This document shows, one piece after another, positions 4,933-32,777 of a DNA stretch of 64,000 nucleotides. The position numbers were made by a program, and so were the translations under genes. The stretch covers positions 1,302,001-1,366,000 of the forward strand of contig NZ_AP018338.1 of NCBI RefSeq assembly GCF_002356415.1, in the 5' to 3' direction. The notes beneath the pieces are model-generated. The model saw only the letters and a list, made by a program, of their open reading frames with translations, searched no databases and had not been told where the DNA came from. This DNA comes from Streptococcus oralis subsp. tigurinus. GTDB lineage: Bacteria; Bacillota; Bacilli; Lactobacillales; Streptococcaceae. Positions within the stretch are counted from its first letter, which is position 1, and every line of letters begins with the position of its first letter.

Positions 4933-4957
4933 TACCTCCTTGTTGACAATCCATAAT

Positions 4958-4986: not shown

Positions 4987-5022
4987 CAAAACATCCCTTT
5001 CTATAGCTATGATTCTCATTTT

Positions 5023-5975: not shown

Positions 5976-5984
5976 TCTTTTTTC

Positions 5985-7319
5985 TTATTGGACGTTGCTT
6001 GTCAAATTAGACAAAAGACGTTCAAATGAGTACTCATAGGTTTGGATATCTCCTGCTCCCATAAAGACATAGACTGCATTATCATGCTCAAGGAGTGGTG
6101 ATACATTTTCAACTGTGATGACTTGGCTTTTCTTCTTAATTTTATCTGCTAGGTCTTCTACCTTGACGTCACCATGATCCACCTCACGGGCTGATCCATA
6201 GATTTTCGCCAAGTAAACAGCATCTGCCTGGCTCAAAGCTTTAGCAAAGTCGTCCAATAGGGCAATGGTTCTAGTGAAAGTGTGTGGTTGGAAGATTGCA
6301 ACAATTTCCTTGCTTGGGTATTTCTGGCGAGCCGCATCTAAGGTCGCAATGATTTCCGTTGGATGATGGGCAAAATCATCGATAATAATAGTACCATTGA
6401 CAACCTTTTCAGTGAAACGACGCTTGACACCAGCAAATGTTTTCAAGTGTTCACGTACCAAGTTCAAGTCAAACCCTGCTGTATAAAGTAAACCAATAAC
6501 GGCTGTCGCATTCATAATATTATGACGACCAAAGGTTGGAATGTGGAATTGACCCAACTCTTGTCCGCGGAAATGAACTGTGAAGGTCGAACCAGTTGTA
6601 GAACGTAGAAGGTCGCTAGCTACAAAGTCATTTCCCTCAGCATCAAAGCCATAGTAATAGATTGGAGCATTGGCTGTAATCTTACGCAACTCAGCATCCT
6701 CACCGTAGACAAACAAACCTTTAGTAATTTGTTTGGCATAGTCATTAAAGGCGTTGAAAACATCCTCTAGACTTGTAAAGTAGTCTGGATGGTCAAAGTC
6801 AATATTGGTGATGATAGAGTATTCTGGGTGGTAAGGCATGAAATGACGCTCATATTCGTCAGATTCAAAAACAAAATACTTAGCATTTTCAGAACCTCGA
6901 CCCGTTCCATCCCCAATCAAGAAGCTAGTGTCTGTGATGTGAGACAAAACGTGAGACAGCATCCCAGTCGTTGATGTCTTTCCATGCGCTCCTGCAACCC
7001 CCATGCTGACAAAGTCACGCATAAAGCTGCCTAGGAATTCATGGTAACGTTTGTAGCTGATACCATTTTTGTCAGCATAGGCGATTTCAACATTGTTATC
7101 TGGACGAAAGGCATTTCCAGCAATAATTTCAAGATCCCCTTGCAGGTTCTTTTCATCAAAAGGAAGAATCGTAATCCCTGCCTGCTCTAGTCCACGTTGA
7201 GTAAAGTAGTATTTTTCAACGTCTGAACCTTGAACCTTGTGTCCCATTTGGTGCAACATCAAGGCCAAGGCACTCATCCCTGATCCCTTGATTCCAATAA
7301 AATGATATGTTTTTGACAT
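5985..7319 (-). CDS. murC: UDP-N-acetylmuramate--L-alanine ligase MurC
   Basis: 444 residues, the normal length. The N-terminal Rossmann domain begins [13 protein letters not shown] (UDP-binding). The ATP loop G-A-H-G-K-T-S-T-T is near residue 110, and the F-E-S-D-E-Y and D-D-F-A-H-H-P-T-E motifs of Mur ligases follow. MurC adds the first L-Ala to UDP-MurNAc in the cytoplasm. A GGGAGA site precedes the ATG. It follows the 203-residue hypothetical by 11 nt and is followed by two acetyltransferases, together forming a probable four-gene operon. Confidence 0.97.
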
Positions 7320-7330
7320 GTTTTTCTCCC

Positions 7331-7942
7331 TTACTCAGTAATTCTTGTCAGATTCAACTCTTGGGCAACCTGACGTTCCTGTTCCGTTTGCTTATTCTTT
7401 TTATTATATATTTGACTCTTCTTTAGAAAATCATAGTTGTTCTTTTTAGCCTTTCCCGTCTGGGATTTCGGAGTTGGAGTCACTACCTGGCCAGCTTCCT
7501 CGGCTAGAATATAGTGGGACTGGCTCAAGTTTTTACTAAACTTGGCAAACTCACCTGGATTTTCCTTTTGAAATGGTGCTGTTGGTTGGTTTCCTTGACG
7601 AACAAGTGTTGAACCATTGTGTCGTCTAGTATGACTAACATCCTGAGTCAAATACTTGGCCGAACGTTTCTTCTTCAGATCCGCACGCGCCTCTTCTCTA
7701 GCCAATTCAGCATACGTTTTTTCAACTTTTTTAGGTTCTGGGTTTGGTTCTGACTCCTTGCTAGCTGCCGAGGGAGTTACAGCCTGTTCCTCATTGATAG
7801 GAGACCATTCCAAATAGTTTTTATCGCGGTAATCACCCTTAATATTGCTAATAAAGTCTGACTCATCGTACAAGTCCATGACTGGCATTTTAGTCAGCAT
7901 AATCTCATCATCTGACACCAATGGAAATCGATCTTGTTTCAT
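7331..7942 (-). CDS. Hypothetical, mostly disordered streptococcal protein upstream of murC
   Basis: 203 residues, no recognised domain. It is strongly polar: a Glu/Pro/Lys-rich centre (about 60-100), an acidic N-terminus and a Lys/Gln-rich C-terminus. There is no signal peptide or membrane helix. [19 protein letters not shown] segment could form a charged helix. It has its own good promoter and is the first gene of the murC operon, which hints at a role tied to the cell envelope, but nothing in the sequence proves it. Confidence 0.75.
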
Positions 7943-7965
7943 TTTGTATTTCCTTTCAACACTTC

Positions 7966-7993
7966 ATTATAGCGTATTGTCTTGATTTTTCAA
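7966..7993 (-). promoter_or_regulatory. Promoter of the hypothetical-murC-GNAT operon
   Basis: Minus-strand TTGAAA (7988-7993), a 16-nt spacer and TATAAT (7966-7971). The -35 overlaps the stop codon of the SNF2 gene. Confidence 0.75.
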
Positions 7994-10900
7994 GTGCTGG
8001 CTTCAGAAATCCCTAAAATTTCTCGAATTTCTGCCAGACTAAGACTCGCACGCGATTCCGTCCCATCTAAAACTTGGGAAACCAGGTGTTTCTTCTGTTC
8101 TTGGAGTTCTTGAATCTTTTCTTCAATGGTTCCTCTAGTAATCAAACGGTAAACCTCTACCTTCCGCTCCTGTCCCATTCGGTGAGCGCGTCCGATAGCC
8201 TGAGCCTCGACAGCAGGATTCCACCAGAGGTCCACTAGGATGACGGTGTCAGCTCCTGTCAGATTGAGACCGACACCCCCCGCCTTAAGGGAGATGAGAA
8301 AGATATCCCTTTCCCCTTGATTAAATATTTTGCTCATCTCTTGTCGGTCTTGAGCAGGAGTTGAGCCCGTAATTTTGAAGGAAGTCAAGCCCAAATTTGG
8401 GAGCTCTTGCTCGATTTTTTCCAACATTCCTTTAAATTGAGAGAAAATCAAGACCCGATGCCCACCATCTGCCACTTGTAGCAATAAATCTCGAAGGCTA
8501 TCGAGTTTACCACTGGCTCCCTGGTAATCGTCCATGAAGAGAGCTGGCGTATCGCAAATCTGGCGCAATCGCATGAGGCCAGATAAGATTTCTACCCGAC
8601 TTCTCTGGAATTCTTGATCTGTCACTTGCGCTAGGCGGTCTCGCATCTGTTGCAACTGGGCTAGATAGATGGCCTTCTGCTGGTCTTCCAGTTCATTTTT
8701 ATAGACGACTTCGATCAGGTCAGGCAGCTCTGTTAGGACTTCTTCTTTCTTACGCCTCATGACGAAGGGCTTGATAAACTGCGCGACTCGGTCAGCCGGT
8801 AATTTCATAAACTCCTTTTTACTTGGCAAGAGCCCCGGAAGCACAATTTGAAAGATAGACCACAACTCTCCTAAGTGGTTTTCGATGGGCGTACCTGACA
8901 AAGCAAAGACTGCTGGTACCACAAACTGGCGCAAACTCTGAGCAATCTTGGTTTGAGCATTTTTCATGACCTGGGCTTCATCTAAGAAGAGAAAATCAAA
9001 AGCCATCTCTTGATAAAGCTCGCTGTCTTGACGAAAGGTAGCATAGCTAGTTACATAGATTTGGTGATTTTCAGAAAGAATCGCTTCTCGATTCGCTTTC
9101 AAACCATGAACGACAGCCAAATCTAACTGTGGGACAAATTTTCTGAATTCATCTGCCCAATTGTAGATCAAACCTGACGGCGCTAAAATCAAGACCCGAC
9201 TATCTTTGGTCACCTGACTAGTTAAAAAAGCAATAGTTTGCAGTGTTTTTCCCAGTCCCATATCATCTGCCAGAATGCCACCAAAGCCATAGTGATGAAG
9301 CATCTGAAGCCAACGGACACCCTTTTCCTGATAGTCTCTCAAACTCGCCTGCACCCGTATATCTCCCAAAGAAAAATCCTCTGGATGGGTCAAATCATGA
9401 GCTAAATGCTGAAATTCCTCTGAGAAGGAGATCCTGTCTCGACCTTCAAAAAGCTGAGAAAGGCTATAAGCCAGAGATTTTCGCGCTTGAAAAGAACCAT
9501 CTTTTAGCTCAACCCCCAGTTCCTGTAAATTTTGACGAATCTGCTTGGTTTCCTCATCAAAAAAGTATACTTGGTCAGAAGAACTGATATAGAAATCCTG
9601 ATTGCTAGTCAGTGCTTTGAGAGCTTGATCAATCTCTTCTTGGGCAATCCCTTGGAAATCAAACTGAATCTCCAACAGTCCTCCCTTGGACTTAATCTGA
9701 ACCTGAGGAGCTTGGACACTATAGAGCTGATTCATCTCATCAGACAAGAAAACCTGACCCAATTTCTCAAAAGCTGGAATCGTATGGTGAAAGAAAGAAT
9801 AAACTGCCTCTGGCTTCAAAGCCTGTCTCCAAGACTGAAAATCAGCCTCAAAACCAGCTCCTAAACAGACTTGAAATAGCTGGTTTTCCAAGACGGCATC
9901 GCTTGAAAATGGTAATTGTTCCAGCTGTTGCTGACTAGTCACCTTAAGATCTCCATAGTCAAACTGGATATCCAAACGAATGCGACCGTCATCCTCCCTA
10001 TCAAAGTAAAAGATTGGTGAAAAGGATCTGATTTGCAAGCGCTCAGGAGCAGAAACTGTGCCCAGCTGTCCAAACAAAGGCAAACAGGCTGCCAAGCGGT
10101 CACGATCACTGTTATCAAATTGGAGGCATTTCCTCCCTCTTTCCTCCTGAGGGAGCTCCTTGAGTTCCTTTAGTAGGCTGATTTGTTTAGGGTTTAATAG
10201 ATAAAGATTCCCCTTATGAAAGAGAACCGCTCCCCCATAAAATACGTTGACTCGCTCACTTTCAGAAATCTCCATCTCAAAATAATCGGGATACTCCTGA
10301 ACAGAAAAAGAGAACAGTTTCGCATCGGGATCTAAATCATGAAAGAGAAGATTTTCATAACTAGTAATCTGGTGCTCAAAATGAAAATCCTCCAAGGTCA
10401 TCAGCAACTCCACTCCCTGTTCAAAAAAGGTCAGAGGGAAAAAGAGGTGACGACCTTGATTGGGGAAAAAGAGGTCTTGACTCAGTCCCTCCTCAATCAA
10501 GCCACATAAAAAAGTAAGAACTTCTTGACTAGCTGTATCAAAAGCATCCCAAGACAAGTCATTTTCATAGTGTTTTCCAATCATATATGGCTTTCGATGG
10601 ACTAAGACCTTCAAAAAGAGTGGGATGTCACGAATGACATAATATTTTTGACTATCAACTAAACCGATTCGGAGAGTCCAAAGGAGGCGATTGGTTCCAG
10701 CCTCTACCTGACCTTGAGCCGACAAAGTGTAGATTTTTCCTCTCTTCTGAGGTTGGATACGCTCCAAAAAACTACCGCCAAAACTAACCTTGGTTTCGAC
10801 CTCTTCTTGCTCTTCATGTCCTTTTTCTAAGGCTCGTAAAATCACCTGGCCTTCTTCATCATTCTTCAGATAATGCTCGAGCGCTGCGAGGTGAACACAG

Positions 10901-21795: not shown

Positions 21796-22534
21796 AATAA
21801 ATCTCTTGAATTTCTGGCGTGTAGGAACCATCATCATTGTGAACAATGAGTGGTGGCAAGACCTTGAAGCCACTCGTCGATCCATCCTTAATAGCTTCGA
21901 TTAAAAGCATATTGGCTTCCTTTTCTCGTTTAGGATAGACAAATTGCAGGCGCTTGGGAGCCAGGTTATGGCGTTGAAGCATATCTAGAATATCCAAAAG
22001 TCGATCTGGACGATGAACCATAACCAAACGCCCATTAGACTTGAGAATACTCTGAGCACTTCGACAGATTTCCTTAAGATTAGTCGCAATTTCATGTCTA
22101 GCTAAAAGGTAGTGTTCACTCTCATTCAAATTGGAATGTGGATCCACCTTGAAATAAGGGGGATTGCACAAAATCATATCCACCTTACTTCCTTGGATGT
22201 GAGCAGGCATATTTTTCAAATCATCGCAGATAACCTGCATCTGCTCTTCCAAGCCATTCAACTGAACCGAACGCTCTGCCATATCCGCCAAGCGCTCTTG
22301 AATTTCTACAGAGAGAATTTTTGCCTTGGTACGACTACTTGCAAAAAGTCCAACTGCACCATTTCCAGCACAAAAGTCCACAATTAAACCCCGTTTAGGG
22401 AAGCGAGGAAAGCGTGACAAGAGAACACTATCCACCGAATAACTAAACACTTCTCTATTTTGAATGATCTTGATATCTGTCGAAAAGAGCTGGTTGATTC
22501 GCTCTCCTGATTTTAATAATTGTTCTTCTTTCAT
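21785..22534 (-). CDS. tRNA1(Val) (adenine37-N6)-methyltransferase family protein (TrmN6/YfiC-like)
   Basis: 249 residues. A class I SAM-methyltransferase fold: [11 protein letters not shown] (SAM loop), S-V-E-I-Q (acidic loop) and the N-P-P-Y catalytic motif of N6-adenine methyltransferases. This family modifies A37 in tRNA-Val in E. coli; the target here is inferred. The promoter's -10 ends 6 nt before the ATG with no ribosome site, predicting a leaderless transcript. It is coupled to the GIY-YIG gene. Confidence 0.85.
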
Positions 22535-22540
22535 ACTTTC

Positions 22541-22568
22541 ATTATATCAAATTATGTTAATAGCACAA
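22541..22568 (-). promoter_or_regulatory. Promoter of the TrmN6-like gene, leaderless type
   Basis: Minus-strand TTGTGC (22563-22568), a 16-nt spacer and TATAAT (22541-22546), then only GAAAGT before the ATG (22532-22534). Confidence 0.7.
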
Positions 22569-22587
22569 ATAATTTAGATAATCGTAT

Positions 22588-22947
22588 TTACGGCTTCTTT
22601 TTTAAATGCTCCAATGCTTCACGCGTCCAAACAGGCATCATTCGTCCAAGTGGTGCAAAACCGTGCTTGATTCGATCATTTGAAAAACGTCTCCGTCTTG
22701 GCAATTGATGTTTTTCCTCTTCTAAGGTACGGATAGAAAGGCTGGCCTTTCCAGTGTATTCGTCAAAATCCACTACCTGTACTTGAACCTCATCGCCAAT
22801 TTTTAAAATGTCATATATATTTTCAATAAATCCCGTCCGAATCTCCGAGATGTGAATCAGCCCTGTTACCCCTGTATCTAACTCAACAAAGGCACCATAG
22901 GGCTGAATTCCTGTAATACGCCCAGTTAGCTTATCACCAATTTTCAT
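22588..22947 (-). CDS. cvfD: S1-domain RNA-binding protein, CvfD/GSP13 type
   Basis: 119 residues from the ATG at 22947 (M-K-I-G-D-K-L-T-G), preceded by GAGGA and placed 1 nt after the upstream stop; the longer frame would run into that gene. Residues 1-75 form one S1/OB-fold (G-R-I-T-G-I-Q-P-Y-G-A-F-V-E-L ... G-L-I-H-I-S-E-I), followed by a basic tail with K-K/R-R-R clusters. In pneumococcus the CvfD protein is a pleiotropic RNA-binding regulator of virulence and stress, and position and size match. It is co-transcribed with the HAD-cyclophilin gene. Confidence 0.85.
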   Translation of the reverse strand: MKIGDKLTGRITGIQPYGAFVELDTGVTGLIHISEIRTGFIENIYDILKIGDEVQVQVVDFDEYTGKASLSIRTLEEEKHQLPRRRRFSNDRIKHGFAPLGRMMPVWTREALEHLKKKP

Positions 22948-22948
22948 T

Positions 22949-24349
22949 CTAGTCCTCAATTTCAATCGTTTCAATTACCACATCTTCAACTGGTTTGTCC
23001 ATTGCACCAGTCTCAACAGCTGCAATGGCATCCAAGACTGCAAAAGATTCAGCATCTACTAACTGCCCAAAAACAGTATGGCGGCGGTCAAGGTGAGGTG
23101 TTCCACCTTGTTCTGCATAAATCTCAGCGATTGGTTCAGGCCAACCACCACGCGCAATCTCTTTCTTAGAGTATGGCAAGTGTTGGTTTTGGACGATAAA
23201 GAACTGGCTTCCATTGGTATTTGGACCCGCATTGGCCATAGAAAGGGCACCACGAACATTATAGAGTTCTTCTGAAAATTCATCTTCAAAAGAGTCGCCG
23301 TAGATTGACTCACCACCCATACCAGTACCAGTTGGGTCTCCACCTTGGATCATAAAGTCCTTGATAATTCGGTGGAAAATCACACCATCATAGTAACCGT
23401 CTTTTGACAGAGCAACAAAGTTAGCCACTGTTTTAGGAGCGTGATCAGGGAAAAGTTTGATGCGCATATCACCATGATTTGTTTTAATAGTCGCTATCGG
23501 ACCTTCTACTGTTTCAATTTCTACTTGTGGAAAATGCAATTCTTTTTCTACCATACCAAATCCTTCTAAGGCATTAAAAATGCCATCTTCTTCTACTGTT
23601 TTTGTTATATAATCTGCTTTTTCTTTGATTTTATCATGGGAAACACCCATAGCAACGCTGATTCCAGCATAATCAAAGAGTTCCAAGTCATTGAGACCGT
23701 CACCAAAGACCATGACATTCTCTGGTTTCAAGCCTAAATGCTCCACCACCTTGGCTACACCTGTGGCTTTTGAACCTGAAATAGGCACAATATCAGATGA
23801 ATGTTTATGCCAACGCACCATGCGAAGTTTACCAGAGAGACTATCTGGTAGGTGCAAGTCATCTCCTTTATCTTCAAAGGTCCACATCTGGTATATATCT
23901 GCTTTTTCATGGAAGTCAGGATCCACATCCAAGTTCGGATAAATCGGATCAATAGCCTCACTGATCAGTTCTGTTCGAGTAGAGAGCTTGGCGTCATGAC
24001 TGCCAACCAAGCCATATTCAATTCCCTCTCGCTTAGTCCAAGAGATATACTCCTCAACATCTGACTTGTCAATCTGATGCAGATAAATGACCTGACTTTT
24101 TTTATCTTCAATATAGGCCCCATTTAGGGTTACAAAAAAGTCCGGCTTGAGCTCACGAATCTCTGGAACAACTCCAAAAATACCACGTCCAGAAGCAATA
24201 CCTGTTAAAATTCCTTTTTCACGCAACTGCTTAAAGACAGTGGGAATTGTAGCTGGAATAAAACCCGTCTTTGACGTACGCAGGGTATCATCAATATCAA
24301 AAAAAACGATTTTAATCTTCTTTGCCTTGTATTTTAATTTCGCATCCAT
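22949..24349 (-). CDS. HAD (Cof-type) phosphatase fused to cyclophilin peptidyl-prolyl isomerase
   Basis: 466 residues with two complete domains. Residues 11-265 are a Cof-type HAD phosphatase: D-I-D-D-T (18-22), S-G-R-G and G-D-G-L-N-D (216-221). Residues about 283-466 are a cyclophilin: [14 protein letters not shown] (325-338, catalytic Arg327), [15 protein letters not shown]. There is no signal peptide, so both act in the cytoplasm. The same fusion is known in pneumococcus, so it is not an assembly artefact. The CvfD gene follows 1 nt downstream. Confidence 0.93.
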
Positions 24350-24378
24350 CTCTCTACCTCTTTTCCATCACTCTTTCC

Positions 24379-24387
24379 ATTATACCA
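24379..24387 (-). promoter_or_regulatory. Extended -10 promoter of the HAD-cyclophilin / cvfD unit
   Basis: Minus-strand TGGTATAAT, about 30 nt before the ATG, with no clear -35. Confidence 0.6.
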
Positions 24388-24434
24388 TAAAGCTGATGAA
24401 ATTCCTTTTTTGAAAAAAGATGAAAATCCTATCA

Positions 24435-24467
24435 AAAAGAGAGCCAGTATAACTAGCCCTCTCTTTT
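24435..24467 (-). terminator. Terminator of the exopolysaccharide operon
   Basis: Minus-strand stem AAAAGAGAG / CTCTCTTTT (arms 24459-24467 and 24435-24443) with a partly paired 15-nt loop and a T tail. It lies 5 nt after the GH8 stop. Confidence 0.75.
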
Positions 24468-24471
24468 CATT

Positions 24472-25575
24472 CTAGAACATCTCTAGAGCAATCATGGTAA
24501 TCATTGTTGCATCATAGTAGTTGTCCAAAGATAAATCTTGTGTAAAAATGTATTTATTTTGCTGAAGAAGTTTCAGATAACCTTCTCCCTTGTCAGATGC
24601 ATAGGTAATCGGTGCCAAAAAACTACCTGCCTGGTATTGATTGAGGGCCGTTCCATTCAAGTCATAACCAGCATAAATACGTTGCTCTTTCATAAAGAAA
24701 TCCATCATCTTTTGAACGAGTTTTTGGCTTCTTTCATCCTGACTCTGTGACAAGTGATATGGCAAACGACAAGCGTTATAAGAATACGCTCCATCATACT
24801 GAGATTCGATAGTGTTGGCATCAACAAGACGTACCCCTGACTTCTCAGCCCAGATAAAGTCTGGCAAGAGACCCGTATCAGAATGAGAACTGATTTGCTC
24901 CAATTGCCCAAGCATCTTATCCTTAACATCTAACCACTGTTTGTTTCCAGTCAGGTCATAAAAAGACTGGAAATAGTGAGGAAGAGTATCAGACGTTCGC
25001 ATCAAGTAATAGTAATCGGAATCCTTGTTGGCCCAGTTCCCTACTGTCAGAACACCTGTCTCTTCGTTGTAATTGTATTGAAGGATATCAGCCAAGATCT
25101 TTTTAGCTTGCTCTTGGTATTCCTGTGCTTTATCTGGCCACTGTTTGGCAGCTTCAATTAAAGAATAAGCGATATAGAGATCTCCATCAGTTGCGTTTTG
25201 CTTCTCAACCGTTTCACTCTCATTTTTGATCACTTGCTTCCAAGACATCAACTGCGTCCCCTCAATACGATGATTTTGGTAATAACTATAAAGACTATCA
25301 AAATCTGCTTGACTTGCTTGCCCTTTTTGGGCAGCTAAAACTGTTATGAGCATGCCGTAACTTTGAGCTTCTGATAGAACTGTTGTCTCCTCAGAATCAT
25401 TCGTCGTACGGACATAGGACTGATTTCCCTTAGTCACAAGAAACTGTTGGCTCCATTGGTGGTAAATACGATTGCGCATCTCGACTTTACTCCTTCCTCT
25501 TGCCAAAAACAAGGTTAAACAAAAGATAGAAAGGATGAGCACAAACCATACATATTTTAATTTATTCGTTTTCAT
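24472..25575 (-). CDS. Membrane-anchored glycoside hydrolase family 8 (exopolysaccharide operon)
   Basis: 367 residues. One N-terminal membrane helix (about 7-25) anchors an extracellular (alpha/alpha)6-barrel domain. GH8 motifs: S-E-A-Q-S-Y-G-M (Glu69, general acid), A-T-D-G-D-L (Asp130) and Y-N-A-C-R-L-P (266-272). In the last motif the common GH8a base Asp is Asn267, as in subfamily GH8b (chitosanase/lichenase-type), where another acidic residue serves as base. GH8 enzymes in synthase operons (BcsZ, Listeria PssZ) trim the exported chain. It is the last gene, 8 nt after the synthase, with GGAGG before the ATG. Substrate unknown; an amino-sugar beta-1,4 polymer is plausible. Confidence 0.85.
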   Translation of the reverse strand: MKTNKLKYVWFVLILSIFCLTLFLARGRSKVEMRNRIYHQWSQQFLVTKGNQSYVRTTNDSEETTVLSEAQSYGMLITVLAAQKGQASQADFDSLYSYYQNHRIEGTQLMSWKQVIKNESETVEKQNATDGDLYIAYSLIEAAKQWPDKAQEYQEQAKKILADILQYNYNEETGVLTVGNWANKDSDYYYLMRTSDTLPHYFQSFYDLTGNKQWLDVKDKMLGQLEQISSHSDTGLLPDFIWAEKSGVRLVDANTIESQYDGAYSYNACRLPYHLSQSQDERSQKLVQKMMDFFMKEQRIYAGYDLNGTALNQYQAGSFLAPITYASDKGEGYLKLLQQNKYIFTQDLSLDNYYDATMITMIALEMF

Positions 25576-25583
25576 AAATCCTC

Positions 25584-26894
25584 CTATCCTGCAAATCGCT
25601 TGGTTTTAACCCACTTGGTTTCTTTTCGTCGGAGTACCTTGTCCAGAACGATTGAAGAAATGGAATCAATGGATACAACGATAAACATCTGTGCGTAAGA
25701 GAAATAGGCTACCAAGGCTAACCAGATTTGTTTTGTCGTCGCTTGTCCAAACTGACTTGCTAATGCCGTCATAATTTGCATCAAATAGAGACCAATCATG
25801 AGAATCCAGTTGAAGAGCATGAGCTGGGCGATGTAGATATTATCCGCATCAAAAGCAAATGGAATTCTGACATCTGGGAAGAAAAGATTAAGACAGATCG
25901 CTAGCACATTCGCTAGGAAAATCAAATCCGATAGGACAATGGCAAAGTTAAACCAAAAGAAAACACAAGAATAGTTAAAGACTTCTAGTTTAACGCGCCA
26001 GTTTGCTCTGCCAAATAAATGCTTAAAATTTGAGAGAACAACTTCGTAGTTTCCTTTAGCCCAACGTTTTCGTTGCATATAGTAACTCTTTAAGGTTTCA
26101 GGTTCTTGTTGGAAAGCCTCTGAGTTATAAGCAAGGGCGATCAATTTACCACTCTGCATGATTTTAAAAGAAATATCGGTATCCTCAGTCAAGGCACCAT
26201 TTTTCCAACCACCGATACTCTTTACAAAGTCGGTTTGAATGATAAAGTTGGTTCCTGGGATACGACCAATTTTAAAGAGATGCCACATCCCAACATGGTG
26301 CACCCGCTGGGTAACAACGATTTCTTGGTTGATACAACGAGTCAAAAAATTTTGATTGGCATTTCGAGTCTTGTTGCGACCGAAAGATGCCACGTGGCGT
26401 TCTGGGTCCTTTATCACTTCTTTGACAAGGAAATAAAGGGCATTTTTTTCAGGCATGGCATCTGCATCATAAACACAGATATATTCACCCGTTGCCATCT
26501 CTAAGGCATCGTTTAGAACGCCTGCTTTTCCTCCCGTACCAGTACGGTCGATAATAGTCAGATTTCTTCCTACATATTCAGGCAGAGCTTGTACAGACAA
26601 ACACTCTGCATAGGTGTTGTCCGAACAGTTATCCGCAAATAGAAGCAACTCCACACGATCGTGAGGGTAATTCATATCCAAGATAGCTTTTGCCGTCTGG
26701 GCAATAACCACATCCTCATTATGAGCAGGAACAACAATAGTAACCTTAGGGTAATAAGGTAGTGGCGAGGTATCCACACGAAAATCACTGTGTTTAAACC
26801 AAAAGTGAACAGCTGAAAAGAGAATTACCAAGCCCCAAGCTAGAGAAATCCAAATTGTAAGCAAGGTAAAAATCATTAACATTTGACTAATCAT
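25584..26894 (-). CDS. Processive family 2 glycosyltransferase (BcsA/IcaA-like polysaccharide synthase)
   Basis: 436 residues. One N-terminal membrane helix (about 5-28), a cytoplasmic GT-A domain and about three C-terminal helices (308-336, 356-378, 388-412). Processive-synthase motifs: V-P-A-H-N-E (55-60), Asp88, D-A-D (143-145), T-E-D (236-238) and Q-R-K-R-W (274-278). It should polymerise a beta-linked sugar on the cytoplasmic face and pass the chain through the membrane. There is no C-terminal PilZ domain, so control must come from elsewhere, most simply the degenerate-GGDEF neighbour. Its start overlaps the end of the 46-residue gene by 8 nt. Confidence 0.92.
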   Translation of the reverse strand: MISQMLMIFTLLTIWISLAWGLVILFSAVHFWFKHSDFRVDTSPLPYYPKVTIVVPAHNEDVVIAQTAKAILDMNYPHDRVELLLFADNCSDNTYAECLSVQALPEYVGRNLTIIDRTGTGGKAGVLNDALEMATGEYICVYDADAMPEKNALYFLVKEVIKDPERHVASFGRNKTRNANQNFLTRCINQEIVVTQRVHHVGMWHLFKIGRIPGTNFIIQTDFVKSIGGWKNGALTEDTDISFKIMQSGKLIALAYNSEAFQQEPETLKSYYMQRKRWAKGNYEVVLSNFKHLFGRANWRVKLEVFNYSCVFFWFNFAIVLSDLIFLANVLAICLNLFFPDVRIPFAFDADNIYIAQLMLFNWILMIGLYLMQIMTALASQFGQATTKQIWLALVAYFSYAQMFIVVSIDSISSIVLDKVLRRKETKWVKTKRFAG

Positions 26895-27027
26895 GATTCA
26901 CCGCCTTAAAATTTTTGTTCACTCGATGGTAGAGAATATTGTATGCAATAAATAGTATAATAAAACAAATGCCAAAGGTGAGACTGAGTCCCAAAGCAAT
27001 GCCAAAAAATATATTGGTTAGAGTCAT
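26887..27027 (-). CDS. 46-residue single-span membrane protein of the exopolysaccharide operon
   Basis: A short gene between the GGDEF-like gene and the synthase. GGAGGG lies 4 nt before its ATG and overlaps the upstream stop codon; its own stop lies 8 nt inside the synthase gene. The protein starts M-T-L-T-N-I-F-F-G-I, has one membrane helix (about 5-34) and a basic C-terminus (H-R-V-N-K-N-F-K). The tight coupling on both sides argues that it is real. By position it recalls IcaD/PgaD, small membrane partners of PNAG synthases, but it is too short for homology to be claimed. Confidence 0.75.
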   Translation of the reverse strand: MTLTNIFFGIALGLSLTFGICFIILFIAYNILYHRVNKNFKAVNHD

Positions 27028-27036
27028 GTTTCCCTC

Positions 27037-27816
27037 CTAATATTCTACAATTACATCTGTCTCTAATTGACGCTTGAGATTACTGGCAACATCCGAGTAG
27101 TTTTGGTATTTATCTTTATTATCAGAGTTAATCATCAAGTAACCTGTTTGGAATTGAATTCCTTGGTTTCCATCTTCTCCATGAAAAACTAAACTGCCTA
27201 GTTTCTCCTGCAAACCATTCAAATAGAGTTGCTTCAAAGAATCTTGACTACTATTAGATAAAACAAGAAAATTCCCATTTGAAACGTAATAGAGTTTATC
27301 GTTGTAACTCAATTCCTGAGAAATTACCTCTTGAATGCGACTGAGCATCAGATTATGTTCTTTCGGTTTAATCTGGAAGAACAAATCTTCATGCGCCCAA
27401 TGAATCAATAAGGACTGTACCGTCACATCACTTTGTTCAGTTACCATAGCATGGTAATCTGCTCGAGCTGCGTCCTCCTGTTCTTGTACCTTTGAGGCCA
27501 CCTTGAAGAAATAATAACGAACCTTAAGTAGAATCCCAATCAAAAGAGGAAAACTGATTAATAAGAAGACCAGTTGAATGATTGGGATATAAACCACACC
27601 CGCCACCAAAACGATAAGTCCAAGCCCAAATGTTAAGATAAGGGTCCAAGTAAGCAAAAGGTCAGATAATACCAACACTGCAAACAAGGCTAAAGCTAAA
27701 AACAAGATTTGTTCTAAAATGATTGCTCGAGCATACAAAAAACAAAGCACCAAAAGAATGGCCTCACAAGCAAGCAAAGCCATAAGCCAGTTTTTAAATT
27801 GACTCCAATTTTTCAT
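27037..27816 (-). CDS. Membrane protein with degenerate GGDEF domain
   Basis: 259 residues. Residues 8-105 hold about four membrane helices. Residues 106-130 form a charged linker and 131-259 a GGDEF-like fold: the sequence D-K-L-Y-Y-V-S-N-G-N-F-L-V-L (173-186) aligns with the active-site hairpin, with S-N-G-N-F (179-183) for GGDEF; the inhibitory-site R-x-x-D five residues upstream is S-Y-N-D (170-173), so its Arg is lost. G-I-Q-F-Q-T-G-Y (219-226) matches the later core strand. It cannot be a normal diguanylate cyclase. It starts 6 nt after the epimerase gene and is a likely regulator of the synthase, comparable to Listeria PssE. Confidence 0.8.
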   Translation of the reverse strand: MKNWSQFKNWLMALLACEAILLVLCFLYARAIILEQILFLALALFAVLVLSDLLLTWTLILTFGLGLIVLVAGVVYIPIIQLVFLLISFPLLIGILLKVRYYFFKVASKVQEQEDAARADYHAMVTEQSDVTVQSLLIHWAHEDLFFQIKPKEHNLMLSRIQEVISQELSYNDKLYYVSNGNFLVLSNSSQDSLKQLYLNGLQEKLGSLVFHGEDGNQGIQFQTGYLMINSDNKDKYQNYSDVASNLKRQLETDVIVEY

Positions 27817-27822
27817 GTTATC

Positions 27823-28971
27823 TTATTTCCCCCCTTTGAATTCAGATACAGAAGTCGCTGCACCAAAGTACTGTTGAATGGATTGGACGATTCGTTCAGA
27901 GGCTCTTCCATCTCCATAAGGATTCGGTGCCTGGGACATTTGTATATAAAGAGCTCCATCTGTTAAGAGAGCTGTCATTGCTTCTTTCACACGTACTGGA
28001 TCCGTACCAACTAGCTTCAAAGTACCTGCTCTTACTCCTTCTGGACGTTCCGTCGTGTCACGAAGGACAAGGACAGGTTTGCCGAGAGAAGGCGCCTCTT
28101 CCTGAACACCTCCAGAGTCAGTCATGATAAAATAGCTTCTTGAAGCCAAATTATGAAAATCAAGTACATCTAAAGGCTCAATCAAGTGAATACGATCATG
28201 ACCAGCTAAGATATCGTTTGCTGTTTCTTGCACAGCAGGGCTAAGGTGAACAGGATAAACAACTTCAATTTCCTGATGAAGATCGACCATCTCACGTAAA
28301 GCTGTAAAGACATTTCTCATTGGTTGACCTTGATTCTCACGACGGTGCATGGTTACCAATACAAGTTTCTTATCTGTATCCAATTGATCTAGAACTTCAT
28401 GATAGTAATCCGATTGAACGGTTAGTTTCAAGGCATCAATGGCTGTATTTCCCGTAATGACAATAGCAGACTCAGGATGATTTTCCTTGAGTAGATTTTC
28501 TTTACTCTCACTAGTTGGAGCAAAATAGAGATCCGCAAGGTTATCTGTCATCTGACGATTCATTTCTTCTGGGAAGGGAGAATACTTATCAAAGGTCCTT
28601 AGACCAGCTTCAACGTGGCCGATACGTACCTGATTATAGAAAGCAACTAAACTTGCTACAAAAGTTGTCGTTGTATCTCCATGAACAAGAATCATATCTG
28701 GACGTTCTTGCTTAACAATTGGATCAAACTTTTCTAAAATTTTTCCAGTAATATCTAAGAGGGATTGATTTTGCCCCATAATATCCAGGTCATAATGTGG
28801 CTCGATGCTAAACGTTTCAAGAACTTGATCTAGCATTTGACGATGCTGAGCTGTCACAACTGTAATCGTCTCAATACTATCACTATGTTTTTGCAATTCT
28901 AACACTAAAGGGGCCATTTTAATAGCTTCTGGTCGTGTTCCAAAAACAACCATCACTTTCAATTTCTTCAT
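27823..28971 (-). CDS. mnaA: UDP-N-acetylglucosamine 2-epimerase (non-hydrolysing)
   Basis: 382 residues, standard length. Motifs of the WecB/MnaA family: V-F-G-T-R-P-E-A-I-K-M-A-P-L (9-22), H-G-D-T-T-T, H-V-E-A-G-L-R-T, M-H-R-R-E-N and T-D-S-G-G-V-Q-E-E-A-P-S-L-G-K-P. It interconverts UDP-GlcNAc and UDP-ManNAc in the cytoplasm. As first gene of the synthase operon it points to a ManNAc-containing polymer, although a UDP-ManNAc role in other surface glycans cannot be excluded. AAGGA precedes the ATG. The gene end forms the G-rich ribosome site of the next gene. Confidence 0.93.
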   Translation of the reverse strand: MKKLKVMVVFGTRPEAIKMAPLVLELQKHSDSIETITVVTAQHRQMLDQVLETFSIEPHYDLDIMGQNQSLLDITGKILEKFDPIVKQERPDMILVHGDTTTTFVASLVAFYNQVRIGHVEAGLRTFDKYSPFPEEMNRQMTDNLADLYFAPTSESKENLLKENHPESAIVITGNTAIDALKLTVQSDYYHEVLDQLDTDKKLVLVTMHRRENQGQPMRNVFTALREMVDLHQEIEVVYPVHLSPAVQETANDILAGHDRIHLIEPLDVLDFHNLASRSYFIMTDSGGVQEEAPSLGKPVLVLRDTTERPEGVRAGTLKLVGTDPVRVKEAMTALLTDGALYIQMSQAPNPYGDGRASERIVQSIQQYFGAATSVSEFKGGK

Positions 28972-29402
28972 TATGGTATCCTTCTACTATAATAAAATTT
29001 GACACATCAGATTAATCTTTATATCGAATTATTGCGCAAATCAATTAATTTGATTATCTTAATTATTTTACCGCTAATTAATTTATATGTCAAATTTTTC
29101 CAAGTATATTATTGCATTTAATTTAATTTTAAATAATCGTAATATTTTTGTAACGCTGTGATTTATAGCTTGTAAACCTTATACCTTAAAGTTTCCTTAA
29201 AATTTTTTTTGAGTGAAGTATTTTTTAAACATTCTAAAACTTACCATTATCTAAATATTTATTTTTTCTTAATAATTCAGATAATTATATTTTAGCGTTT
29301 CATAGAATATATCTCTTTTTCTAATACGAAAAAATCCCTCTCTAATGAAAAAGGGATTTACGACTTCTTGCTATTTTAAAGTTAAACCTTATAAGATCTA
29401 TC
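28972..29402 (-). promoter_or_regulatory. AT-rich control region upstream of the exopolysaccharide operon
   Basis: About 430 bp without a gene, visibly far more AT-rich than its surroundings. One possible promoter for the epimerase reads TTGATT, 15 nt, TATAAA around 29013-29045 on the minus strand, but spacing is poor. The left end holds the terminator of the GNAT gene (29332-29359). Nothing else was recognised. The length suggests regulatory binding sites. Confidence 0.45.
29332..29359 (-). terminator. Terminator of the GNAT gene at 29403
   Basis: Minus-strand AAATCCC / GGGATTT stem (arms 29353-29359 and 29332-29338), 14-nt loop, T-rich tail. Confidence 0.7.
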
Positions 29403-29912
29403 TTAAATCAAATCTTTTGACAGATATAAAACAAGGTCACCGATATCTTCACAAATAGCATCCATAGCCGGTCTGTGATTTTGATACCAAACACCCGTCC
29501 CATCTGGAATATAGCCTCGTTTGATGTACAATCTCTGGGCAGGTCCATACCCTGAATGGAGCCCAACACCAAGGGTCACCTTATCCGATATGAGCCTAAC
29601 TCGTTTTTCTGCTTCTTCCAGCAAGAGATTTCCAATACCTTGATTTTGAAAGGGCTCAAAAACATTGAAATCTGAAAGTTCTGGAGCCATTCCAGCAAAG
29701 GGACCCTGCTTAGCATCGGGTAAAATCGTAATGTAACCCGCTACAGCACCCTCAACCTCTGCAACTAAGACTTCTCTCTCCCCACTTTCTTGTTCAAGAA
29801 AATATCTATCCAAAATTTCTTCTCTACCCGGCCAACCTTGGCTGATAAATCCTCGAGATAGATCTTGTATGTCAGATTCTTGCATTTTTCTAATTGAACA
29901 TGTCGTCTTCAT
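29403..29912 (-). CDS. GNAT-family N-acetyltransferase
   Basis: 169 residues. GNAT motif A is seen as F-N-V-F-E-P-F-Q-N-Q-G-I-G-N-L-L-L-E-E-A and the C-terminal region Q-R-L-Y-I-K-R-G-Y-I-P-D-G-T-G-V-W-Y. The phrase A-G-Y-I-T-I-L-P precedes it. The acceptor is unknown. AAAGGAG precedes the ATG, an extended -10 TGCTATAAT lies at 29942-29950, and terminators flank it on both sides, so it is a single-gene unit between the polysaccharide operon and rpsR. Confidence 0.85.
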   Translation of the reverse strand: MKTTCSIRKMQESDIQDLSRGFISQGWPGREEILDRYFLEQESGEREVLVAEVEGAVAGYITILPDAKQGPFAGMAPELSDFNVFEPFQNQGIGNLLLEEAEKRVRLISDKVTLGVGLHSGYGPAQRLYIKRGYIPDGTGVWYQNHRPAMDAICEDIGDLVLYLSKDLI

Positions 29913-29941
29913 AAGCTGCTCCTTTATAGCTTTCTCCTACC

Positions 29942-29950
29942 ATTATAGCA
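29942..29950 (-). promoter_or_regulatory. Extended -10 promoter of the GNAT gene
   Basis: Minus-strand TGCTATAAT about 30 nt before the start codon; no clear -35. Confidence 0.55.
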
Positions 29951-29968
29951 CGATAATAAAGATTAAAA

Positions 29969-30003
29969 GAAAAACCTAGTAAGACAAAAGAATCTTACTA
30001 GGT
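29969..30003 (-). terminator. Last terminator downstream of rpsR
   Basis: A perfect 11-bp stem (ACCTAGTAAGA / TCTTACTAGGT, arms 29974-29984 and 29993-30003) followed by T5 on the minus strand. It lies between the repeat array and the GNAT promoter. Confidence 0.85.
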
Positions 30004-30045
30004 CAACAGGGAATCCTTTCTAACAAAATCCTATAAAAATCTGAA

Positions 30046-30241
30046 AAAGAGGTCCCCCGGACCGAACTCGCCTTCTCATTTCAAGGCTCGTAAAAAAAAG
30101 ACCCGTAAGGGTCTTATTCGCTTTCTTATTTCCGAGCTCATGAAAAAGAGGTCCACTGGACCTCAACTCGCTCTCTCATTTCAAAGCTCATGAAAAAAAG
30201 ACCCGTAAGGGTCTGAAAAAGAGGTCCCCCGGACCTCTTTT
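30046..30241 (-). repeat. Tandem array of five terminator hairpins downstream of rpsR
   Basis: Five hairpins start at 30049, 30099, 30148, 30199 and 30220. The first four are 50, 49 and 51 nt apart. Stems alternate between GGTCC-type (GAGGTCC/GGACCTC) and AGACCC-GTAA-GGGTCT. On the minus strand each is followed by 5-8 T. The approximately 33-nt linkers are copies of one another (CATGAGC...GAAAT.AGA..GCGA). The hairpin nearest rpsR (12-bp stem) is its true terminator; the rest look like duplications that kept pairing. Confidence 0.85.
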
Positions 30242-30481
30242 TTAATCTTCGTTTACGAAAGGCATCAAAGCCATTACGCGAGCGCGTTTGATAGCTGTTG
30301 TTACTTTACGTTGGTTTTTAGCTGAAGTTCCTGTTACACGACGAGGAAGGATTTTCCCACGTTCTGAAACGAAACGGCTAAGAAGCTCAGTATCTTTGTA
30401 ATCAACATATTCAATTTTGTTTGCTGCGATGTAATCAACTTTTTTACGGCGTTTGAATCCGCCACGACGTTGTTGAGCCAT
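30242..30481 (-). CDS. rpsR: 30S ribosomal protein S18
   Basis: 79 residues, standard. Starts [17 protein letters not shown] and contains the S18 signature [19 protein letters not shown]. It binds 16S rRNA together with S6. It lacks the Zn-binding cysteines of some S18 forms. It is the last gene of rpsF-ssb-rpsR, 31 nt after ssb, and is followed directly by the hairpin array. Confidence 0.98.
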
Positions 30482-30512
30482 GTTTTTTCTCCTTTATAGT
30501 ATTAATTGTCCA

Positions 30513-30983
30513 TTAGAATGGTAAATCATCATCTGAAATGTCCAATGGATTGGTTGCTCCGAATGGATTTTCAGAACGTGAAAAGTCTGGTACTGGGTTT
30601 GCAGGTGCTGATTGACCAGCAGTTGGTGCAGAATAAGCCCCACCTGTATGTCCTTCGCGCACTCCGCGGCTTTCCAACATTTGGAAATTCTCAGCCACGA
30701 CTTCTGTTACGTAGACACGTTGTCCTTGCTGGTTATCGTAACTACGAGTCTGGATACGGCCTGTGATCCCGATAAGAGAGCCTTTTTTAGCCCAGTTGGC
30801 AAGATTTTCAGCCTGTTGGCGCCACATAACGACATTGATGAAATCAGCCTCACGTTCGCCATTTTGACTCTTAAATGTACGGTTTACTGCAAGAGTAAAA
30901 GTCGCAACTGCTACATTTGATGGGGTATAACGCAACTCAGCGTCACGTGTCATACGCCCTACAAGTACAACATTGTTAATCAT
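30513..30983 (-). CDS. ssb: Single-stranded DNA-binding protein
   Basis: 156 residues. The N-terminal OB-fold (1-105) begins [19 protein letters not shown] and contains W-R-Q-Q-A-E-N. A Gly/Ala/Pro-rich linker leads to the acidic partner-binding tip D-I-S-D-D-D-L-P-F. It coats ssDNA in replication and repair. It lies between rpsF and rpsR, the arrangement conserved in Firmicutes. Confidence 0.97.
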
Positions 30984-30994
30984 AATTTACCTTC

Positions 30995-31285
30995 TTACGC
31001 GTCAAGTTTGACGATCATGTGACGAAGAATGTCAGTGTTGATTTTTGAAAGACGGTCAAACTCTTTAAGAGCTGCGTCGTCGTTTGCTTCAACGTTAACG
31101 ATGTGGTAAAGTCCTTCACGGAAATCTTGGATTTCGTATGCAAGACGACGTTTTTCCCATGATTTTGATTCAACAACAGTTGCACCGTTGTCAGTCAAGA
31201 TAGAGTCAAAACGTGCTACCAAAGCGTTTTTCGCTTCTTCTTCAATGTTTGGACGAATGATATAAAGAATTTCGTATTTAGCCAT
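30995..31285 (-). CDS. rpsF: 30S ribosomal protein S6
   Basis: 96 residues. Starts [13 protein letters not shown] and has the S6 motifs [10 protein letters not shown] and G-L-Y-H-I-V. It pairs with S18 on the 30S platform. First gene of the rpsF-ssb-rpsR operon, with an AGGAGG site, a strong promoter and a structured leader. Confidence 0.98.
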
Positions 31286-31353
31286 TGATATGTTCCTCCT
31301 TTTGGTCTAATGACCCCTAGTCTTTGCAAGGGGTAAGTGAGGTTTGCTCACAA
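31286..31353 (-). promoter_or_regulatory. Structured 5' leader of rpsF
   Basis: On the minus strand the leader has two hairpins: GTGAG-CAAAC-CTCAC and ACCCC / GGGGT with a 12-nt loop. Firmicute rpsF leaders are often bound by the S6:S18 complex as feedback control. I do not see the conserved CCG bulge clearly, so this assignment is tentative. Confidence 0.4.
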
Positions 31354-31359
31354 TAAACT

Positions 31360-31388
31360 ATTATACTAGAAAAACTGATAGATAGCAA
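31360..31388 (-). promoter_or_regulatory. Promoter of rpsF-ssb-rpsR
   Basis: Minus-strand TTGCTA (31383-31388), 17-nt spacer, TATAAT (31360-31365). Confidence 0.85.
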
Positions 31389-31399
31389 GATAAAAGTGA

Positions 31400-31427
31400 A
31401 AAAAGAAGATGAAATTATCTTCTTTTT
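31400..31427 (-). terminator. Terminator of asnS
   Basis: An 11-bp perfect stem (AAAAAGAAGAT / ATCTTCTTTTT), 6-nt loop, 7 nt after the asnS stop. Although AT-rich it ends in a T run on either strand. Confidence 0.7.
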
Positions 31428-31433
31428 ACTAGT

Positions 31434-32777
31434 TTATGGTTTGATACGGTGTAGCATACGTGGGAATGGAATAGCTTCACGGATGTGTTTTGTACCTGCT
31501 GCGAAAGTGACCATACGCTCGATACCGATACCAAAGCCACCGTGTGGTACAGTACCGTATTTACGAAGGTCAAGGTAGAATTCATACTCTGTACGATCCA
31601 TGCCAAGTTCATCCATCTTAGCAACTAATGCATCGTAGTCTTCCTCACGCATAGATCCACCGATGATTTCTCCGTAACCTTCTGGAGCAAGCAAGTCTGC
31701 ACAAAGCACGCGCTCTGGATTTCCAGGAACTGGTTTCATGTAGAAGGCCTTGATAGCAGCTGGGTAGTTCATAACAAATGTTGGCACACCAAAGTGGTTT
31801 GAAATCCATGTTTCGTGTGGTGAACCAAAGTCATCTCCATGCTCAAGATGCTCGTAGTCAGCATCTTCATCATTTTCATGCTCTTGCAAAAGGTCAATGG
31901 CTTGATCGTAAGTGATGCGTTTAAATGGCTCTGCAATGTAGCGTTTCAAGAGCTCTATATCACGTTCCAAGGTTTCCAAGGCTTGAGGTGCACGATCAAG
32001 TACACCTTGAAGAAGGGCTTTTACGTAAGCTTCTTGCAAGTCAAGTGATTCATCGTGTGTCAGGTAGGAGTACTCAGCATCCATCATCCAGAACTCAGTC
32101 AAGTGACGGCGTGTTTTTGATTTTTCAGCACGGAATACTGGACCAAAGTCAAAGACACGACCAAGAGCCATAGCTCCTGCTTCTAGGTAAAGCTGACCTG
32201 ATTGGCTCAAGTAGGCTGGCGTTCCAAAGTAGTCTGTTTCAAAGAGTTCAGTTGAATCCTCTGCCGCATTTCCTGAAAGAATTGGGCTATCAAATTTCAT
32301 GAAGCCGTTCTTGTCGAAAAACTCATAAGTCGCATAGATAATCGCGTTACGGATTTGCATAACCGCTACTTGCTTACGAGAGCGGAGCCATAAGTGACGG
32401 TTGTCCATCAAGAAGTCAGTTCCGTGTTCTTTTGGTGTGATTGGGTAGTCTTGAGATTCACCGATGACTTCGATGTCTGTAATATCCAACTCATAGCCAA
32501 ACTTAGAACGTTCGTCTTCTTTGACAATTCCTGTCACATAAACAGAAGTTTCTTGGCTCAAGCGTTTGATGGTGTCAAATTTTTCAAGACCTACCTCTTC
32601 ACCAAATTTTTCAATAAAGTTTGGTTTGAAGGCAACTCCTTGGAAAAAGGCTGTTCCATCACGCAATTGCAAGAAGGCAATTTTTCCTTTTCCTGATTTG
32701 TTGGCAACCCAGGCCCCAATGGTCACTTCTTGACCAACGTAGTCTTTTACTTCGATAATTGTTACACGTTTTGTCAT
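31434..32777 (-). CDS. asnS: Asparaginyl-tRNA synthetase
   Basis: 447 residues. An N-terminal OB anticodon-binding domain ([21 protein letters not shown]) is followed by the class IIb catalytic core: motif 2 [15 protein letters not shown] and motif 3 G-F-G-I-G-I-E-R. It charges tRNA-Asn in the cytoplasm. Gene order tseB-aspB-asnS is conserved with Bacillus (ypmB-aspB-asnS). A terminator separates it from aspB, and it has an extended -10 (TGGTAAAAT, about 32826-32834). Confidence 0.97.

Follow-up and report, generated by a model that had tools for sequence, protein, structure and literature searches.

A five-gene operon of Streptococcus oralis subsp. tigurinus with a degenerate GGDEF protein, predicted to make an amino-sugar exopolysaccharide

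Relation of the operon to described polysaccharide systems

Several described systems for exopolysaccharide (EPS) synthesis resemble the operon reported here, five genes in a 64,000-nucleotide stretch of the Streptococcus oralis subsp. tigurinus genome (the window, to which all coordinates refer; the genome is a single contig of 1.889 Mb). The Pss polymer of Listeria monocytogenes is reported to be a beta-1,4-linked N-acetylmannosamine (ManNAc) chain with alpha-1,6-linked galactose (PMC7926710, PMC5422440), and PssE is described as a receptor that binds cyclic di-GMP (c-di-GMP) through its I-site (PMC4125290). The hydrolase of that system, PssZ, was called a member of glycoside hydrolase family 8 (GH8) by its discoverers, while CAZy classes it as GH126 (PMC7479077). 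In the ydaJKLMN EPS operon of Bacillus subtilis, a degenerate GGDEF protein with four transmembrane (TM) helices, YdaK, lies beside putative glycosyltransferases; YdaK needs its RxxD motif and a diguanylate cyclase, substitution R202A or D205A abolished EPS, and the polymer is given there as not known (PMC5422440). The NGR system of Escherichia coli (NfrA, NfrB, WecB and DgcJ) has a BcsA-like glycosyltransferase of family 2 (GT2), NfrB, which depends on the epimerase WecB and for which a ManNAc polymer has been proposed; wecB is reported to be the only gene for enterobacterial common antigen (ECA) needed for the NfrB-dependent phage receptor (PMC8669472). Finally, the Pel system of Streptococcus intermedius is described as making a matrix polymer that depends on a synthase, in streptococci that have no known diguanylate cyclases, with an altered receptor domain (PMC12345266).

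The operon runs on the minus strand from 28971 down to 24472. Its open reading frames (ORFs) and translations give, in gene order, a non-hydrolysing UDP-N-acetylglucosamine (UDP-GlcNAc) 2-epimerase of the WecB/MnaA type, the predicted supplier of UDP-ManNAc (27823..28971, 382 aa); a membrane protein with four N-terminal helices and a C-terminal degenerate GGDEF domain (27037..27816, 259 aa); a 46-aa single-pass membrane protein, predicted to be a small synthase partner (26887..27027); a membrane-integrated GT2 polysaccharide synthase (25584..26894, 436 aa); and a GH8 hydrolase with one N-terminal hydrophobic anchor (24472..25575, 367 aa). The five genes are tightly coupled, with gaps of 6, 9, -8 and 8 nt, exactly as the first-pass annotation of this DNA had described them. 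A search for the five-protein set across streptococci, which that annotation had proposed, found all five genes in the same order in 21 of the 24 named Streptococcus loci, so the operon is more than a chance arrangement. Its identification as a synthase-dependent EPS operon is supported by the protein families, the GT2 fold and this recurring gene order. Based on the analyses below, we consider it fairly likely that this operon directs synthesis of a secreted, beta-linked homopolymer of an amino sugar, most likely poly-N-acetylmannosamine, and does so without c-di-GMP control. The gene set, its conservation, the folds, the absence of the I-site and the co-occurrence of synthase and epimerase are taken from sequence and models, and from these we infer the sugar, the linkage, the roles of the partner proteins and release of the chain by the GH8 enzyme.

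The GT2 protein matches PF13641 with 78.7 bits, and a Pfam scan of it gave no PilZ hit. It carries D143xD145, E237-D238-T239 and Q274xxRW, and invariant residues support its assignment. Its AlphaFold2 model (pLDDT 86.9, pTM 0.86) matched the folds of hyaluronan synthase and the cellulose synthase BcsA. The first-pass claim that the parts for export are complete is a prediction; the modelled fold is that of self-exporting synthases. When the synthase was compared with known ones (rows of 380 aa or less, namely L070, were left out here and in the tree), it was 35% identical over 411 residues to the PssC of a Listeria whose PssE shares 96% identity with L. monocytogenes proteins, and 21% identical to PgaC. 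The motifs IPGTNF, YDAD and EDT are common to the synthase and PssC, whereas PgaC differs there. In the synthase tree, the type found here forms its own clade of 38 rows beside a Pss-type clade of 12 rows, and PgaC stands on a very long branch. The best NCBIfam match of the synthase was PgaC_IcaA (TIGR03937), at 129.5 bits against a cut-off of 422.3, and the CelA profile gave 80.8 bits against 699.1. A counterpart of the 46-aa protein, an ORF of 44-56 aa with one hydrophobic stretch, was found at the same position in all 20 Lactobacillales loci fetched outside Streptococcus and in all three loci fetched from a family beyond that order (f12).

The operon and Listeria Pss share a PssC-like GT2, a four-TM degenerate-GGDEF protein, a hydrolase related to the GH8 clan and ManNAc as the probable sugar. 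A GT2 and degenerate-GGDEF EPS system with a hydrolase is already a known kind, represented by Pss and, by description, Yda. However, the operon as read from sequence does not have the gene content of a Pss locus, since it lacks PssA, PssB and the BcsB-type PssD (the rest of the genome was not searched for BcsB). Detailed comparison shows that the streptococcal branch differs from Pss in five respects. First, only the five genes lie between the GNAT and HAD-cyclophilin genes, while the Pss-type relatives carry ORFs of PssA, PssB and PssD sizes, BcsB being confirmed in the one relative tested for it (L133, 130 bits). Second, the operon has the 46-aa protein. Third, its hydrolase is GH8 and not GH126. 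Fourth, the epimerase gene lies inside the operon. Finally, the I-site RxxD is absent, and the genome is without a match to PF00990 (GGDEF). The resemblance to Pss claimed in the first-pass annotation thus stands for the PssC-like GT2 and the PssE-like GGDEF protein and fails on these missing parts, and its comparison with a "GH8 PssZ" was right about the hydrolase here (PF01270) and not about PssZ (GH126 in CAZy, according to PMC7479077).

The other systems are less like the operon. The synthases of poly-N-acetylglucosamine (PNAG), PgaCD and IcaAD, also join a GT2 to a small membrane partner, with PgaD found beside PgaC and IcaD being the partner of IcaA, but membership in this group was rejected on the low identity to PgaC and the score under the PgaC_IcaA cut-off, and the operon has no deacetylase gene. 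Bacterial cellulose synthase (Bcs) was rejected because both the CelA and BcsZ profiles scored under their cut-offs and no PilZ hit was obtained. The Pel system contains the family 4 glycosyltransferase PelF and PelG, whereas the GT2 is the sole transferase in the operon. S. intermedius Pel further differs in its Pel genes and its polymer rich in N-acetylgalactosamine, and its PelD is reported to lack a GGDEF domain outright, whereas the operon here keeps a dead one (PMC12345266). Likeness to NGR, which was compared by description, lies in the BcsA-like GT2, the WecB-type epimerase and the proposed ManNAc; NfrB for its part is described with an MshEN-like c-di-GMP module, a need for DgcJ, an outer-membrane exporter and an epimerase encoded in the ECA cluster (PMC8669472). 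A Yda-type assignment was rejected, since YdaK depends on RxxD and a diguanylate cyclase according to PMC5422440, while the operon has no RxxD. We found no characterisation of the locus in the literature searched, which takes in few subscription journals.

The epimerase, the hydrolase and the probable sugar

The epimerase scored 412.6 bits against PF02350 (Epimerase_2) and 514.5 bits against TIGR00236 (cut-off 210.15), which makes it a WecB/MnaA equivalog. On the sequence evidence ManNAc is the best-supported sugar of the polymer, because this gene is the sole PF02350 match in the genome (G000), a profile search of that genome found no PF03808 (TagA/WecG) match, all 40 Streptococcus genomes with an intact synthase carry an epimerase, and epimerase genes lie beside related synthases. 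In five further places such a gene adjoins a synthase cluster of this superfamily in differing layouts, namely before the GGDEF gene (L110), after the GH8 gene (L086), after pssE (L096 and L097) and immediately behind the gene for the synthase (L098). The first-pass annotation had likewise taken the dedicated epimerase as pointing to ManNAc.

We then compared the occurrence of the two genes across genomes, using Fisher tests that treat genomes as independent and are uncorrected for relatedness. In Streptococcus, the epimerase was present in 42 of the 44 synthase-positive genomes, including one with a partly masked synthase (G187) and one with a premature stop in it (G169), against 39 of 153 without the synthase (p 7e-18); the two genomes that lack it, G161 and G172, both have broken synthases. 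Outside Streptococcus, in an order sample of at most 332 genomes (345 minus 13 seen to be Streptococcus), all 68 GT2-positive genomes had an epimerase (synthase at E 1e-40, streptococcal and Pss types together), against 174 of at most 264 others (p 3e-11). In both Liquorilactobacillus genomes, the epimerase gene lies elsewhere, away from the cluster. The locus L098 (genome G253, 4388-8652) contains a divergent synthase with 45% identity to PssC and 32% to that of S. oralis subsp. tigurinus; its epimerase gene overlaps the synthase end and a 598-aa protein is encoded in front, so that the locus may represent one more arrangement, the third, of this system.

The hydrolase is a plain GH8 enzyme, with 106 bits against PF01270 (Glyco_hydro_8; cut-off 24), and the BcsZ profile gave 65.9 bits against a cut-off of 299. 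Its closest solved relatives in a PDB sequence search were a GH8 glucanase (5xd0) and a GH8 chitosanase (1v5c). The PssZ entry 6R2M was not among the 29 PDB sequences matched, and no GH126 model was run. In the family alignment, from which rows of 315 aa or less (L077) were left out, the candidate catalytic acid E69 is conserved in 34 of 34 rows, as are D130, D132, D196, D239, D261 and N267. We take E69 to align with the catalytic acid of chitosanase K17. As for the base, N267 presumably sits at the position of the classical GH8 base Asp and E257 presumably aligns with the base of chitosanase K17; E257 is Glu in only 6 of the 34 rows, so its assignment as the catalytic base is unsupported by the alignment. 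The membrane anchor was assigned from a hydrophobic N-terminal stretch in the S. oralis subsp. tigurinus sequence and hydropathy in relatives.

Here, we need to consider several points that weigh against poly-ManNAc. The association of synthase and epimerase in Streptococcus largely follows from their shared operon, and epimerases are common, being found in 242 of at most 332 non-Streptococcus genomes. Among the 23 loci outside Streptococcus that have a cluster of the streptococcal type (20 fetched loci plus L110, L020 and L023), only two, L086 and L110, have the epimerase gene adjoining it, so that the link there is one of co-occurrence. Furthermore, a synthase identity of 35% is too low to determine the sugar, the hydrolase has as its nearest solved relatives enzymes named glucanase and chitosanase, and its candidate-base residues disagree, with N267 invariant and E257 variable. 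It is conceivable, though in our judgement unlikely, that the same machinery uses another sugar, the synthase polymerising UDP-GlcNAc directly into a chitin-, chitosan- or PNAG-like chain while the epimerase only buffers the pool, diverts part of it or supplies a different glycan. PgaC_IcaA as the best NCBIfam match would agree with such a polymer, but its 129.5 bits are far below the cut-off and PgaC is more distant than PssC both in identity (21% against 35%) and in the tree. Chitosanases are among the solved GH8 relatives, and the operon lacks a deacetylase. The epimerase lies outside the cluster in most non-Streptococcus loci, but in S. oralis subsp. tigurinus the sole epimerase gene of the genome is the first of the operon and no TagA/WecG consumer was found.

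The degenerate GGDEF protein and c-di-GMP

The 259-aa membrane protein has no significant Pfam match. A PDB sequence search with it returned chance matches only, and its identity came from structure and relatives. The AlphaFold2 model (mean pLDDT 86.2) shows four long helices followed by a C-terminal domain. Foldseek matched this model to solved GGDEF domains with a best E value of 7.2e-6 and a probability of 1.0, and TM-scores by target were 0.67-0.76 for ranks 1-7, as is found for a GGDEF fold. When the alignment of the family was compared with a PssE alignment by hhalign, the probability was 97.4% (E 9.1e-12). Three relatives score above the Pfam GGDEF cut-off of 23.8 (L084 with 31.2 bits, L131 with 27.2 and L132 with 26.3). 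The structural match and these relatives confirm the earlier call of a degenerate-GGDEF membrane protein. In the motif columns, the S. oralis subsp. tigurinus protein has SNGNF in place of GGDEF, HWAH at the first-strand Asp and SYND at the I-site RxxD; it has neither the GGDEF/GGEEF signature nor the metal-binding Asp of an active diguanylate cyclase. Its gene diverges far more than its neighbours, with about 52% identity to S. parasanguinis (L005 and L006), where the synthase shows 88-89%, the epimerase 82% and the GH8 protein 70-71%.

RxxD is absent from all 33 Lactobacillales rows of the GGDEF-protein alignment (which leaves out L004, with a misjudged start, L078, with the gene in two pieces, and loci near-identical to kept rows), and is present in all three f12 relatives (RYED, RFED and RFED). 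As far as sequence can tell, the operon does not work by a c-di-GMP switch, because it has no RxxD, the genome has no PF00990 match (EAL, HD-GYP and PilZ genes were not searched genome-wide) and no PilZ hit was obtained in the synthase. PF00990 matches were found in 2 of the 44 synthase-bearing Streptococcus genomes (G181 and G187). Since three relatives from large-genome Bacilli retain RxxD, c-di-GMP control of the synthase system was probably lost. The GGDEF domain would then descend from a c-di-GMP receptor that gated synthesis, and because the binding site is gone in this lineage, the domain may be a fixed scaffold or a reader of another ligand.

The eight PssE-type proteins vary in the same motif. 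RxxD is present in L090, L091, L094 and L095, from genomes with other, full GGDEF genes (G268, G375, G249 and G226), and absent in L092, L093, L096 and L097. The genomes G453, G510 and G442, whose PssE-type protein has no RxxD, contain no GGDEF match, the exception being G389 (5% contaminated), which has lost RxxD and has GGDEF genes. The Pss-type loci L093, L096 and L097 thus combine a PssE without RxxD with a genome without a PF00990 match, as if c-di-GMP control had been lost independently in these lineages.

Two observations weigh against a simple loss of the messenger and its site. First, four genomes with a streptococcal-type cluster (G256, G295, G501 and G465) encode full GGDEF domains at other loci although RxxD is missing from this protein, so that loss of the motif does not simply follow loss of the messenger. 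Second, 12 of the 33 rows have an Arg at the residue preceding the I-site position (RLPEE and similar) and may therefore keep a shifted remnant of the I-site; none of the 12 is streptococcal, and the S. oralis subsp. tigurinus protein is without the shifted Arg. We judge as quite improbable a Pss- or Yda-type system in which c-di-GMP, or some other cyclic dinucleotide, still controls synthesis by binding to the degenerate GGDEF domain. The GGDEF fold and the hhalign match to PssE would suit it, PssE and YdaK are described as c-di-GMP receptors (PMC4125290, PMC5422440) and streptococci are reported to make c-di-AMP (PMC10243994), but the motif whose Arg or Asp was indispensable in the reported YdaK substitutions (PMC5422440) is missing from 33 of 33 rows, no PF00990 match exists in the genome, and the operon lacks PssA, PssB and BcsB.

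Distribution, genomic site and proposed working of the operon

The synthase was found in 44 of 197 Streptococcus genomes sampled (E 1e-30). The named loci number 26, comprising 24 from Streptococcus and two from Liquorilactobacillus (L020 and L023), and the nearest synthases among them are those of S. oralis DD24 and DD15, both 98% identical. In three of the 21 Streptococcus loci with all five genes (L002, L009 and L013), a contig end or masked bases remove part of one gene; the remaining three of the 24 have a contig end within the synthase (L021), masked bases within it (L024) or a decayed operon (L022). Outside Streptococcus, 21 genomes of the order sample (Lactobacillales) have a synthase of 55-69% identity. 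All 20 loci fetched from these contain the GH8 gene, a membrane protein with 3-4 hydrophobic stretches and the small ORF, although L078 has its GGDEF gene split in two and L070, L073 and L077 each have an interrupted or shortened synthase or hydrolase; the twenty-first (L110) has a contig end inside the synthase. Beyond the order, nine f12 genomes have a synthase of 47-50% identity, and in the three that were fetched, with genome sizes of 5.6-7.6 Mb, the synthase comes after a GGDEF-type protein and the small protein, with a one-TM protein of 386-405 aa in front and a Pfam GH8 match in one of the three. The first-pass annotation had spoken of mitis-group streptococci, in which it knew of no characterised polymer of this kind; the operon is, on this distribution, not special to that group, and the absence of a characterisation agrees with our literature search. 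We hold only as a tentative possibility that Lactobacillales at large share a minimal poly-ManNAc system (degenerate GGDEF, 46-aa protein, GT2 and GH8) with a c-di-GMP-gated ancestor, as the RxxD-bearing relatives suggest, in which the messenger was lost and the receptor fold kept as an essential scaffold or re-tuned.

Decay of the operon in many strains was considered and rejected, as G187 (L024 and L112), L013, L002 and L034 appeared broken through masked bases alone. True damage among the 44 synthase-bearing genomes is limited to three. Streptococcus sp. Marseille-Q5986 (G161; L022 and L114) has, at the same site, a synthase gene and a hydrolase gene that are both broken into two frames and a GGDEF protein of which no more than the final 17 residues can be recognised, and its genome contains no epimerase; G172 (L113) keeps a synthase remnant and GH8; and G169 (L042) has the premature stop in the synthase. 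A GH8 match in G144 was an unrelated enzyme (22% identity).

The insertion site was examined in 10 of the 153 synthase-less Streptococcus genomes, picked for the closest HAD-cyclophilin. In nine of them ssb, rpsR, GNAT and HAD-cyclophilin are consecutive, with GNAT directly adjoining HAD-cyclophilin; in the tenth (L104) GNAT and HAD-cyclophilin also adjoin, rpsR and ssb being outside its stretch. Since these two genes are adjacent in relatives without the operon, the operon splits GNAT from HAD-cyclophilin. The claim that it interrupts a conserved stretch is borne out, but the split is not between HAD-cyclophilin and rpsR as first proposed, because the GNAT gene (29403-29912) sits between the operon and rpsR. 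The neighbours vary in other streptococci. Strain HMSC072G04 (L004) and S. sanguinis KO16 (L010) have an rpoC gene upstream of the operon, S. ferus (L014) has a gene for RNase J upstream and one for an ABC protein downstream, and S. vestibularis, S. hyointestinalis and strain DD12 show yet other genes. The synthase tree within Streptococcus, weakly supported at some forks, mostly tracks what we take to be species groups, which, taken with the varied neighbours, points to repeated relocation of the unit. A contig of S. sinensis HKU4 (L003, 3083-7578) contains a copy with a synthase 97% identical to that of S. oralis subsp. tigurinus; because S. sinensis is not known to be a relative of S. oralis, this copy may be a recent transfer or a mixed assembly.

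The 430 nt between GNAT and the epimerase gene (28972-29402) are AT-rich and contain a likely promoter. A promoter-like site, TTGACA-17-TAAAAT (29065..29093, minus strand, 11/12 in a consensus scan), lies about 95 nt upstream of the epimerase start; the region has 19 such sites against 15.0 +/- 3.5 in shuffles, so that the site is weak by itself. The same holds for a terminator-like hairpin between GNAT and the operon (29332..29359, minus strand), because the scan found two in the region against 3.6 expected in shuffles. Another terminator-like hairpin stands directly 3' of the GH8 stop codon (24434..24466, minus strand; -19.4 kcal/mol, z -5.88); it is absent from the consensus-scan listing, and 0 of 200 shuffles were equally good. 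An Rfam scan of 22000-32000 found no family at gathering score.

We propose that the epimerase, as its family predicts, would turn UDP-GlcNAc into UDP-ManNAc, and that the synthase would polymerise this sugar and thread the chain out through its own transmembrane channel, as its modelled fold suggests. The degenerate-GGDEF and 46-aa proteins may be structural partners needed by the synthase and holding its active state. Outside the cell, the membrane-anchored GH8 enzyme would cut the chain, releasing or clearing it. As the operon lacks PssA, PssB and BcsB, its product probably has a simpler structure than the Listeria Pss chain and may carry no galactose branches, and output would be set by transcription and the UDP-GlcNAc pool. 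A wall- or lipid-linked polymer of capsule-like or teichoic-acid-like kind, with GH8 as a wall-remodelling enzyme, would fit the GH8 membrane anchor and the supply of capsule and teichoic acid by epimerase products in other bacteria, but is very improbable, as none of the five genes is a LytR-CpsA-Psr, Wzx/Wzy, priming transferase or teichoic acid gene and the synthase fold is that of free-polymer synthases.

If the operon makes secreted poly-ManNAc without c-di-GMP control, many oral streptococci would have the genetic means to make a further matrix polymer besides glucans and Pel, and the sole UDP-ManNAc maker of a genome in which no TagA/WecG-type transferase was found would be explained. 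The operon would also be a natural case of a c-di-GMP-controlled synthase that has outlived c-di-GMP, with RxxD in the three f12 relatives and in none of the 33 Lactobacillales proteins, and the role of a ligand-free degenerate GGDEF domain would be directly testable in a commensal.

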